Shown here: positions 51,380-55,634 of the stretch, in pieces
Numbering within the stretch: the stretch's first letter is position 1
Layout of the letters: every line of letters starts with the position of its first letter
DNA from: Bernardetia sp. ABR2-2B
GTDB lineage: Bacteria; Bacteroidota; Bacteroidia; Cytophagales; Bernardetiaceae
Reading direction: 5' to 3'
Assembly: GCF_037126435.1 (NCBI RefSeq)
Contig: NZ_CP147020.1
Coordinates: 4,911,001-4,975,000, forward strand
Length of the DNA: 64,000 nucleotides
Made by a program: the position numbers and the translations under genes
The notes under the pieces: generated by a model
Told to the model about the DNA's origin: nothing
The model's database searches: none
Seen by the model: only the letters and a program-made list of their open reading frames with translations

Positions 51380-53106
51380 ATGGAAAATTATGTAGTTTCG
51401 GCACGAAAATATCGCCCAGATACGTTTGATGCTGTCGTCGGACAATCGCACATTACGGATACTCTCAAAAATGCAATTCGCTCTAGCCAACTTGCACAGG
51501 CTTTTCTGTTTTGTGGCCCTAGAGGTGTAGGTAAAACTACCTGTTCTCGTATTTTGGCAAAGACAATAAACTGCTTGAATATTACAGAAGATACTGAGCC
51601 GTGTGATGAGTGTACTTCGTGTAAATCTTTTAATAGTGGTAACTCGCTTAATATTAGTGAGTTAGATGCAGCTTCGAATAATTCTGTTGAAGATATTAGA
51701 AACCTAATTGAGCAGGTTCGTTATCCTCCACAGGCAGGGAAAAAGAAAGTTTATATTATTGATGAGGTTCACATGCTTTCAAATCAAGCCTTTAATGCTT
51801 TTTTGAAGACGTTGGAAGAGCCTCCTTCGTATGCTATTTTTATTTTGGCGACGACCGAAAAACACAAAATCATTCCTACTATTCTTTCTCGTTGTCAGAT
51901 TTTTGATTTCAATAGAATACAGCCTAATGATGTAGCTCGTCATTTAGAAAAAATTGCTATCAATGAAAAGGTAGAAGCTGAAGAAGAAGCACTACAACTT
52001 ATCGGAAGAAAAGCTGATGGTGCGCTTCGTGATGCACTTTCTATTTTTGATATGTTGGTTACTTTTTCGCCTGACAGAAAGCTAACTTATACCCGTGCTA
52101 TTGATAATCTTCACGTTCTAGATTATGATTATTATTTCAGATTGACTGACGCTTTTTTGAACAGAAATCATACAGATGCGTTATTGATTTTTGATGAAAT
52201 ACTAAAAAAAGGCTTTGACGGGCATAATTTTGTAGTTGGTCTTTGTGAACATTTACGTGATTTATTAGTAGCTAAAGATGCTGCAACAGTTACTTTATTA
52301 GAACTTTCAGAATCGATAAAAGAAAAGTATAAATCACAGGCTGCTAATTCGTCTTTTTCTTTTTTGATGTCAGCTCTCAACTTGGCTTCTGCTTGTGAGT
52401 TGGGTTATAAAAATAGCAAAAACCAGCGTCTTCATGTAGAAATGACACTTTTGAAACTTTCTCATGTGATGGCTGCGCTTTCTATTCCTCAACTGGTAGA
52501 AGATTTAAAAAAAAAAGATTAACTAAATCTCAAAATTCATCACAAGAAGAAAGCTCTAGTTCTTCTAAAAAAATAGCTGTAAACCCTGCATTAGCAAAAA
52601 ATACAGAGGATACTCCTTGGAAAAAAACGCCAAAGGTAACTACCAACATAAAGCCTAAGAAAAAGAAAGAAGCTACTGAAATCAAAATAGAAGAAAAACA
52701 AGAAAGCGAAAAGGTAATAAGTGCATCAGCCGACCGAACTTCTAGTTTTGATACTGCAAAAGCTCAAAAAGTTTGGAAAGAGTTTTTCAAAATGAGTCCT
52801 TCTAGCTTTGCGCCTACACTCATAAATATAAAAATAAAAGTAGAAGAATCGCCAATTATCAAAGTAGAACTGCTCAATAATATTGCGCTGCGTTCCGAAT
52901 TTTCTGCCATCAGAATCGCTCTAAATCCATATTTGGCCAATAACTTGGATAATGATTTTATTAAAATTGAAATCATAGACCAAAAGTTAGAGAAGCAAAT
53001 AGCTGTGAAGTCTTTATCTGAACAAGAAAAATTAGATGTTTTGGTAAAAGAATTTCCTTTGATAAATGAGGCAATGAGAAGATTTGGTTTAAAATTAGAA
53101 AACTAA
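51380..53106 (+). CDS. dnaX: DNA polymerase III subunits tau and gamma, frameshifted gene
   Basis: The clamp-loader ATPase of the replisome. Frame 0 encodes 380 residues (51380-52522) with the Walker A loop GPRGVGKTT (46-54), zinc cysteines C65, C75, C78, C81, the DEVHMLSNQAFNAFLKTLEEPP segment and the SRC arginine finger: domains I to III. It stops at TAA right after a run of ten A (52507-52516). The -1 frame is open from this run to the stop at 53104-53106, adding a basic, Ser/Glu-rich linker and a tau-like C-terminal domain (PSSFAPTLINIKIKVEESPI), total 575 aa. So one gene should give a gamma-like short form and a tau-like long form by slippage. The next gene starts right at its stop. Confidence 0.9.
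52507..52522 (+). other. Slippery A10 site with adjacent stop codon in dnaX
   Basis: In frame 0 the site reads TTA AAA AAA AAA GAT TAA. A -1 slip (or insertion of one A, or loss of two A, in the mRNA) gives AAA AAA AAA AGA TTA ACT and continues for 195 more codons. A weak hairpin, AGAAGAA and TTCTTCT around eight bases (52545-52566), lies 28 bases downstream, too far for a typical ribosomal stimulator. Confidence 0.85.
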
Positions 53107-53937
53107 ATGACAAATAAAAATCTATTTTCCTATAAGCCAGAAAATTCAAATCAAAAAATTTGGCAAGTTTACCCTGACCCAAAAAGTGAATTTATAGTTT
53201 TGGAGATTAGAGAGAAGCAAAAACAAAAATATATATCTCAACTTCTAGTTTTAGATACAGAAAAAGAAAAAGTTTTTGCCATTGCAGAAATGGAAGCTAC
53301 TCAAACGCTCGTTAATTTTTTTGATAAGACAATTTTACTTTCAGAAATTGATTTTCAAAATGAAATGCCAATTGCAAAAGGTTTACAGGCTTTGAATATG
53401 GATTTTGAAACGATTTGGGAGCTTGAAGAAGTGAGTTATTATGGTATTTGGGAAGAGAAACATCAAACTCAAAATATTGAAAAGGTTATTTTTTCTTTGC
53501 AAGAAAATTATTATTCTGTACCTCTAAAACTAGATGCCAATTCAAGTAAAGAAGAAGTAGAAGCCAGTCAAGAAAACTATAATAATCTACAATCTAAAAT
53601 TAAACAATACTTCTACTCTACTCAAGAATATTCAACAAATCACATAAATTACAAAGATATTGCAAGTTTTATCTTAGAAAAGGCAAAGCATAAAGTAAAA
53701 GAATCTATTTTTTACGTAGAAAATGATAACTATTTGGTTTGTAGTTTTTTAGTGGAATATAAGGAAAATAAGTTTAAAAATTATTTGCTCTGTACAGATA
53801 GAAAAGGAATTATACAAACTTATTTTCTTATAAAAGATATAGAAAAAGAAGGCAAAAAAAATCCACAAGAATTGATTTTAATGAAAAACAAAATCTTGTG
53901 GATAGATGAAAATGAATTTCATTTTTTAAGCATTTAA
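53107..53937 (+). CDS. DUF4905-like protein of unknown function
   Basis: A 276-aa, probably cytoplasmic protein. The N-terminal region (LFSYKPENSNQKIWQVYPDPKSEFIVLEIREK) and the alternating beta strands that follow (LLVLDTEKEKVFAIAEM, LQALNMDFETIWELEEVSYYG) recall the DUF4905 family of Bacteroidota, a tentative match. The ATG follows the dnaX -1 frame stop with no spacer (TAAATG), so translation is probably coupled to the tau form of dnaX, and both are in one transcript. Confidence 0.65.
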   Translation: MTNKNLFSYKPENSNQKIWQVYPDPKSEFIVLEIREKQKQKYISQLLVLDTEKEKVFAIAEMEATQTLVNFFDKTILLSEIDFQNEMPIAKGLQALNMDFETIWELEEVSYYGIWEEKHQTQNIEKVIFSLQENYYSVPLKLDANSSKEEVEASQENYNNLQSKIKQYFYSTQEYSTNHINYKDIASFILEKAKHKVKESIFYVENDNYLVCSFLVEYKENKFKNYLLCTDRKGIIQTYFLIKDIEKEGKKNPQELILMKNKILWIDENEFHFLSI

Positions 53938-54830: not shown

Positions 54831-55217
54831 TTACTTTTTATTATAAAAATAAAGTGCTAAAAACAACCAACCTAAAATTAATAAAAATCCTCCAATAAAA
54901 GCAAAAATACCTATCTTGGAGCTTGAGGTAGAAGATAAATAAAGTGAGCCAGACAGAAGAAGTGTTCCAAAAAGGTGTAAGTTCCCTGCCCAAATCAAAC
55001 TTGTATTCGATTTTTTAGAATCGTTTGCATCAGTTTCAACTGAATCTGTTTTTATCAAAAATCCTATTAAAATAATAGAAAGCGAATGGGCAAAATGATA
55101 AATGAGAGCTGTCTGAAAAATTTCTAATCTGATATCAGAAAAATGTGTAATAAAACCTCCGACTCCGACTGCTAAAGCTCCCAAAATTGCGCCCCAAAAT
55201 ATAAAATTATTTTTCAT
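54831..55217 (-). CDS. DUF423 membrane protein, tandem copy 1
   Basis: A 128-aa protein with four hydrophobic helices and the DUF423 layout: MKNNFIFWGAILGALAVGVGGF at the start, TALIYHFAHSLSIILIGFLI, WAGNLHLFGTLLLSGSLYL and FLLILGWLFLALYFY at the end. The HAHALKDW-type motif of the family is degenerate here (FITHFSDIRLE). It lies 33 bases downstream of a paralogue, so the two are a tandem duplication in one transcript. Function unknown. Confidence 0.82.
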   Translation of the reverse strand: MKNNFIFWGAILGALAVGVGGFITHFSDIRLEIFQTALIYHFAHSLSIILIGFLIKTDSVETDANDSKKSNTSLIWAGNLHLFGTLLLSGSLYLSSTSSSKIGIFAFIGGFLLILGWLFLALYFYNKK

Positions 55218-55250
55218 TTTAAATAAATTTTCTGTTACTGATTATTTGTT

Positions 55251-55634
55251 TTAAAAAAAAAAAACTGCCAAAAATACCCAACCTACAATCAATAAAACCC
55301 CACCAATAGGCGTAATTGCGCCCAACCATTTTATATTTGTGAGGCAAAGCAAGTAAAGCGTTCCTGAAAAAATAAGTATTCCAAAAAGATGTAAATTTCC
55401 TGCCCAAGTCAAGAGTTTAGATGATTTTTCTGAATTTTTTAAGCCTAATTGCATCAAAATTCCTATCAAAATAATAGAAAAAGAATGATAAAAATGGTAT
55501 TTAGAAGCTGTTTGAAAGGTTTCTACCTGACCAATAGCAATGAGCCAATCTTTCAAAGCATGTGCGCCAAAAGCTCCAATTCCTACTGCCAAAGCTCCCA
55601 AAATTGCGCCCCAAAATATAAAGTTGTTTTTCAT
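55251..55634 (-). CDS. DUF423 membrane protein, tandem copy 2
   Basis: A 127-aa protein with four helices and the full DUF423 motifs: MKNNFIFWGAILGALAVGIGAFGAHALKDWL, YHFYHSFSIILIGIL, WAGNLHLFGILIFSGTLYLL and LLIVGWVFLAVFFF. The first 18 residues are identical to those of copy 1, also nearly so in DNA. It retains the conserved GAHALKDWL, so it is the more canonical copy. It ends in a run of T codons (12 A at 55251-55262 on the plus strand), a place where indels could change the last residues. Confidence 0.85.
   Translation of the reverse strand: MKNNFIFWGAILGALAVGIGAFGAHALKDWLIAIGQVETFQTASKYHFYHSFSIILIGILMQLGLKNSEKSSKLLTWAGNLHLFGILIFSGTLYLLCLTNIKWLGAITPIGGVLLIVGWVFLAVFFF

Follow-up and report, generated by a model that had tools for sequence, protein, structure and literature searches.

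A conserved ten-adenine run at the gamma/tau border of dnaX in Bernardetia sp. ABR2-2B and its relatives: a probable site of programmed transcriptional slippage

The window, that is, the whole 64-kb stretch of DNA that was analysed, contains a dnaX gene in two reading frames. All features of this locus lie on the plus strand. Frame 0 (51380..52522) encodes a gamma-like product of 380 aa with the ATPase, the lid, and domain III, and it matches DnaX over nearly its whole length (NF011531, 706.5 bits; TIGR02397). At its end the sequence reads TTA AAA AAA AAA GAT TAA. The run of ten adenines (A10, 52507..52516) thus lies in the context TTA AAA AAA AAA G, and the frame-0 TAA stop (52520-52522) is one codon past it. 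The tau-specific part occupies the -1 frame (52516..53106) and can be reached via an mRNA with A11 or via a -1 ribosomal shift. Past the run this frame has 195 open codons up to a TAA stop (53104-53106), and the next ORF, of 276 aa (53107..53937), starts directly behind it. The -1 part corresponds to positions 420-613 of the 614 in NF011531 (E 4e-13), and it is also matched by a profile made with relatives whose dnaX is single-frame or run-less (E 1e-16). These results confirm a preliminary description of this DNA in three respects, namely a complete 380-aa part with TAA right after the run, an open -1 frame of 195 codons with a tau-type C-terminal part, and an end that adjoins the next gene.

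Only the tau frame continues beyond the run in ABR2-2B, as the other two frames stop after 1 and 2 codons. No second dnaX was found in the genome, in which other profile matches were weak and partial. Runs of ten adenines are rarer in the window than expected, with 5 matches, of which three overlap within a single A12, vs a mean of 14.9 from shuffles. In the whole genome, 24 of 31 isolated A10 runs lie outside any ORF of at least 100 aa. Two other long ORFs of 523 and 482 aa, on contig C1 near 610830 (L252) and 225975 (L249), contain an A10 and a T10, respectively; both other frames close within 8 codons there, and these may be further slippage genes. The A12 of the window (55253-55264, plus strand) overlaps the 3' end of a 127-aa ORF on the minus strand. 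Together with an adjacent, similar ORF of 128 aa, this ORF forms a pair (54831-55634, minus strand) that looks membrane-protein-like by eye.

The C-terminal part of tau was further characterized by structure prediction. The model of the last 135 residues, obtained with a 50-sequence input, has a pLDDT of 88 and includes a predicted KH-like domain (52747..52986; model residues 17-96). The VIA-align Z-scores of the model were 8.4 for a chain of the SirA-DnaA domain I complex, 8.0 for RbfA, and 7.4 for a chain of the DnaB-DciA complex, and those listed for DnaA, RbfA, and DciA range from 8.4 to 6.5. We take the folds of DnaA domain I, RbfA, and DciA, as well as that of E. coli tau domain V, to be KH-like. 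The predicted tau fold may resemble KH-like domains, with middling Z-scores that perhaps reflect no more than a shared arrangement. Among the best 50 structure matches listed, E. coli tau domain V (2AYA) did not appear. A Foldseek search with the tau model gave nothing under 1e-3, and the best PDB match to the tau part by sequence had an E-value of 1.2. Pfam assigned no family to the ABR2-2B C-terminal part, and members of alignment A1 gave scattered weak matches (DciA in 2 of 50). PF12170, the model of tau domain V, had no match in the ABR2-2B genome; this model is narrow, because among 14 control genomes it was found in only one, that of E. coli.

Relatives were sampled at several levels. 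Among seven genomes of the genus, dnaX was found in six, including ABR2-2B, and in the seventh (G005) none was found. The wider set of 243 dnaX loci comprises 57 found in relatives, 106 drawn evenly across the class, and 80 from named records. It was thinned at 85% protein identity to 150 representatives. L064, a copy of L042, and the weak partial matches L002-L004 were dropped before the 243 loci were counted. L185 and L203 are copies of genomes already sampled; they were left out of a hairpin test on 206 loci and are still among the 243. Further copies may be shared between the named and unnamed sets, and the thinning was meant to absorb these. No strong dnaX match was obtained in G005 and G051, and no match at 1e-60 in G067 and G123. 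Six class genomes with matches (G071, G074, G081, G098, G114, and G163) were left outside the draw. From 87 matching genomes outside the class, 20 loci were hand-picked to span families and frame lengths; an A9 or A10 is present at the gamma/tau border in 12 of these (L285-L292, L295-L298) and in none of the other 8.

The run is conserved far beyond the genus. All six dnaX genes of the genus carry exactly A10 followed by TAA or TAG one codon later; both features whose conservation the preliminary description had proposed to check, run and stop, are thus kept there. A run of at least nine adenines at codons 345-420 was found in 208 of the 243 loci (A10 in 182, A9 in 18, and A11 in 8) and in 130 of the 150 representatives (110, 14, and 6, respectively). 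For comparison, codons 1-335 of the same 150 genes contain only 3 such runs in 150,750 bases. Among the 94 loci in which dnaX is divided between two frames, an A9-A11 run lies within codons 345-420 in 92, and a different slippery heptamer is present in the remaining two (L188, L204). For all-AAA codons, the calculated probability is conditional on the runs chosen and was excluded from the evidence.

The frame of tau relative to gamma varies among the 130 run-bearing representatives. Of these, 75 encode tau in frame 0, 50 in -1, and 4 in +1; the one left unassigned is L068, first labelled +1, whose contig extends just 3 codons past the run. A tau profile built from 93 single-frame or run-less C-termini matches each of the 54 shifted C-termini and, at E 1e-3, none of the 54 reversed controls. 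Past the run, the two non-tau frames both close within 10 codons in 122 of 129 representatives. This also holds for the 75 genes with tau in frame 0, where the other frames stop within 10 codons in 93% of cases vs 30% at control anchors. On a quick tree in which many deep branches are weak, and without a shuffled control, run-bearing rows account for at least 27 switches of the tau frame between 0 and not-0. The run itself is found in all three codon phases. Shifts to -1 are far commoner than shifts to +1 (50 vs 4). In the passages on dnaX in PMC3711429, shifts in both directions are taken as a sign of transcriptional realignment, and a section of PMC5009743 describes that one base change is able to reverse which product is the standard one.

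RNA structure at the run was analysed on both of its sides. In the 206-locus test, hairpins ending 0-3 nt 5' of the run had a mean of -6.3 kcal/mol vs -2.9 kcal/mol at 12 in-gene control anchors each, and hairpins starting 3-9 nt after the run did not differ from controls (-3.79 vs -3.74). Among the 130 representatives, the mean for 5'-abutting hairpins peaks at the run itself (-4.59 kcal/mol) and lies between -1.5 and -2.2 from 8 nt upstream on. The corresponding null was -2.14 kcal/mol with shuffled sequences (sd of set means 0.19) and -3.04 kcal/mol with synonymous recoding (sd 0.20). The observed hairpin was better than all 20 shuffles in 30 of 130 representatives, where 6.2 are expected, and better than all 20 recoded sequences in 28. 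An abutting hairpin of -7 or better is present in 24% of representatives vs 6.5% of shuffled and 12.4% of recoded sequences, which indicates that the encoded protein accounts for some of the signal. No clear excess of internal Shine-Dalgarno elements was seen at the run (4.6% of representatives vs 2.9% of controls). The enrichment of hairpins upstream and not downstream favours slippage of RNA polymerase, aided by a hairpin in some species.

The clearest 5' hairpins occur in Rufibacter and Dyadobacter as perfect inverted repeats that touch the run; compensatory changes in them are too few for significance (149 and 152 of 500 shuffles, respectively, reach them). The ABR2-2B locus has a weak hairpin (52479..52502) that ends 4 nt 5' of the run and is a candidate nascent-RNA stimulator. 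Its stability is -1.6 kcal/mol, no better than at 7 of 12 in-gene control anchors, and the 45-nt stretch preceding the run folds more poorly than shuffles do (z +1.23). In the six genus sequences it has 8 pairs, 95.8% of cells paired, and one compensatory change at synonymous sites, a covariation that is suggestive only, as 66-83 of 500 shuffles reach it. The 5' hairpin is, on this sequence evidence, a property of part of the group and is not established for the ABR2-2B locus. Downstream, a 7-bp hairpin starts 28 nt after the run, and a weak 4-bp hairpin lies directly after it. The preliminary description was thus nearly right on structure: no strong stem is nearby and a hairpin lies 28 bases away, although it is not the only one. 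None of the six genus sequences has a hairpin starting 3-9 nt after the run. ABR2-2B has no Shine-Dalgarno-like element upstream of the run, and its congener L009 has GGAGG just before it.

The run is absent in 20 of the 150 representatives, most of them single-frame. Uninterrupted genes without an A-run in close relatives had been named in the preliminary description as evidence against programming; they are absent within the genus and present in the wider order and class. They do not refute programming, because an A9-A11 run is retained even where tau is in frame 0, in 75 representatives. Three run-less lineages, namely Pontibacter, an Arcicella-like clade, and one further genus (L328), carry a signal of the ribosomal-frameshift type at the same place. 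Two family draws were used, in which the best 30 of 60 and the best 30 of 96 matching loci were examined.

The Pontibacter-like loci (L168, L170, L171, L173-L180, and L299-L312; 11 named and 14 unnamed, 21 of them distinct over 66 bases) have A_AAA_AAA (A7) followed by GCTAA, with five bases between the heptamer and a stem of 7-8/9 pairs. The loop GGCACC (24 loci; GGCGCC once) is able to pair with a downstream GGTGCC in 25 of 25. In the 11 named loci, 6 of 8 fourfold sites in this element are invariant vs 17 of 105 in the whole gene; the possible pseudoknot shows conservation and no covariation. This is likely a ribosomal -1 frameshift site at which gamma would be made. The Arcicella-like clade (L188, L204, and L329-L341; 15 loci) has G_GGA_AAG at codon 380 in 14 loci and A_AAA_AAG in one. 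In all 15, GGAGGG is located exactly 9 nt upstream of the heptamer, a motif that occurs elsewhere only 2 times in 16,200 bases of gamma parts. A profile search placed tau in -1 in 5 of these loci and in frame 0 in 8; in the other 2, L204 and L331, the contig ends too early to tell. These two have identical gamma parts, each with 59 bases remaining beyond the gamma stop, and are probably one record. L328, from the draw of Pontibacter's family, has A_AAA_AAG after GGAGGG and tau in -1.

On the quick tree, L168 (Pontibacter) was placed with L040 and L057, which bear A10, and L188 (Arcicella) in a clade with A10-bearing rows; the tree did not include L328. Judged from sequence, slippage seems to have been replaced by ribosomal frameshifting twice, or perhaps three times if L328 is counted. 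The remaining 18 representatives without a run (e.g., L028, L089, L098, L104, L107, and L147) are nearly all single-frame and have no clear recoding signal by eye; they may make no gamma, or, by analogy, obtain it by proteolysis, the route that a passage of PMC5009743 gives for Caulobacter. An A8 with a -1 stop close by is present in L012 and L054. Ten loci (L028, L089, L098, L104, L107, L116, L120, L124, L132, and L147) are single-frame, lack an A-run, and show no obvious signal by eye; they may come from tau-only species.

We consider that this one dnaX gene most probably gives rise to two clamp-loader subunits by programmed transcriptional slippage (probability roughly 0.83). RNA polymerase would lose register on A10, which would yield mRNAs that differ in the number of adenines. 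The templated A10 (also A13 etc.) would encode gamma, with its stop one codon past the run. With A11 (or A8 or A14) the -1 frame and thus tau would be restored, and A9 or A12 would lead to a stop two codons on. A stable nascent-RNA hairpin just behind the run would probably assist in about a quarter of relatives. Since two frames end at once and the third is tau, the ratio would depend mainly on the frequency of slipping, whichever frame the DNA encodes. It would then make little difference whether a relative has tau in frame 0, -1, or +1. From sequence, we infer the slippage itself, its direction and ratio, and the production and use of both proteins. Transcriptional slippage is favoured because shifts occur in both directions, hairpins are found upstream and not downstream, and three run-less lineages carry unrelated signals of the ribosomal type. 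The preference for this mechanism in the preliminary description thus gains support on wider grounds than the absence of a stem.

The strongest competitor, which we nevertheless regard as unlikely, is ribosomal -1 frameshifting on a uniform mRNA. The heptamer A_AAA_AAA is in frame within the ABR2-2B run and is not separable from the run itself, so that ribosomal slipping may add to that of the polymerase. The 4-bp hairpin directly after the run and the GGAGG of L009 are compatible with a role of the ribosome, and the signals in the three lineages of the same order indicate that relatives appear to use it at this site. However, runs are mostly 10 long where 7 would suffice, and the 7-long run of Pontibacter comes with its possible downstream pseudoknot. 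A ribosomal shift is also hard to reconcile with the lack of a downstream stem excess, with the absence of any hairpin starting 3-9 nt after the run in the six genus sequences, and with the lack of a clear Shine-Dalgarno-like excess, and +1 cases exist.

Much less weight can be given to explanations that require no slipping on an RNA, each of which we consider highly improbable. A separate small protein, reinitiated after the gamma stop, would suit the adjacent position of the two ORFs and an ATG ORF of 104 aa inside the -1 frame. However, the first ATG, GTG, or TTG in the ABR2-2B tau frame is 272 nt past the gamma stop, within the predicted domain, and a start codon lies within 30 nt of the stop in only 6 of 54 two-frame representatives (none an ATG) vs 59% of control places. 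Homopolymers are error-prone, and the real gene could be single-frame, or inactive in the case of a pseudogene. An error is contradicted by the A9-A11 run (usually A10) at the gamma end in 130 of 150 non-redundant genes; against both an error and a pseudogene stand the same run and stop in 6/6 genus genes, the run or a heptamer in all two-frame loci, the absence of a second dnaX, and the conserved tau part. The earlier view that the site is programmed and not an assembly error is thereby upheld, with 54/54 shifted C-termini being true tau. Run length does vary between lineages (A9, A10, A11), as would be expected if it changed in the DNA by replication slippage and cells switched between gamma-only and tau states. 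It is, however, exactly A10 in all six dnaX genes of the genus, and the gamma-only state should not be viable if, as expected, the function of tau is essential. On this evidence, all four readings (sequencing error, pseudogene, reinitiation, and phase variation) were rejected.

Beyond the single locus, we hold it to be somewhat better than an even bet that most of a bacterial class sets the subunit ratio of its replicase by a frame-indifferent switch, in which polymerase slips on A10, a 5' nascent hairpin acts in part of the species, tau is in any frame, and slippage and ribosomal signals have repeatedly been exchanged at the same place. If so, the target of selection would be the amount of slippage rather than the encoded frame, and much of the group would need gamma. 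The 18 run-less representatives without a clear signal by eye would represent a natural contrast. Slippage sites with and without hairpins also provide a natural series for studying the causes of polymerase slippage. For annotation, these data are a warning, as 94 of 243 dnaX genes look broken and are most likely intact. According to the dnaX passage of a 2012 review (PMC3290774), most other bacteria lack a dnaX frameshift signature and may make no gamma. The retention of the run in 130 of 150 representatives and the unrelated signal at the same place in three run-less lineages suggest that selection acts on gamma, or on the gamma:tau ratio, in bacteria other than E. coli and Thermus, which bears on an old open question.

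The two-ORF A10 type of dnaX is not new and has been known since 2013. In the dnaX sections of Antonov et al. (2013; PMC3711429), 17 two-ORF dnaX fs-genes from 12 genera are described, nine of the 17 with A10, and transcriptional realignment is proposed for them by alignment with Thermus. The arrangement given there is the same as in ABR2-2B, with the frame-0 gamma end beside a poly-A run and tau in -1; its species may or may not overlap with the ABR2-2B group. The present analysis differs in covering 243 loci, all three frame settings, 5' hairpins, and lineages with ribosomal-type signals. In the open-access literature searched, a scope outside which most subscription papers fall, no report was found of broad A10 conservation, frame-indifference, 5' hairpins in dnaX, or the Pontibacter and Arcicella-like signals.

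For E. coli dnaX, the account in PMC3711429 lists A_AAA_AAG together with a Shine-Dalgarno-like element upstream and a hairpin downstream of it. This ribosomal frameshift likewise yields gamma and tau from one gene, but ABR2-2B has neither stimulator at the tested spacing of the system as described there. The Pontibacter and Arcicella-like signals are closer to E. coli dnaX than ABR2-2B is, and the -1 tau frame of L328 is the reverse of the E. coli arrangement. In Thermus thermophilus, transcriptional slippage on A9 gives gamma and tau from heterogeneous mRNAs, according to the dnaX passages of PMC1088944 and PMC5009743. ABR2-2B resembles this case as described there in its run of at least nine adenines at the gamma/tau border and in the close stops of both non-tau frames. 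Unlike Thermus, with tau in frame 0 and A9, it has tau in -1 and A10, and its slippage is predicted from the sequence. A Roseiflexus insertion sequence, in the description in PMC5009743, has the slippage motif T5C5, loses one base, and carries a 5'-adjacent stem-loop in the nascent RNA. The dnaX sites differ from it as reported in having A10, in probably gaining or losing bases, and, for ABR2-2B, in the weakness of the hairpin. From what that source describes, Roseiflexus is nevertheless the nearest precedent, as its hairpin lies directly 5' of the motif, just as at part of the dnaX A10 sites.
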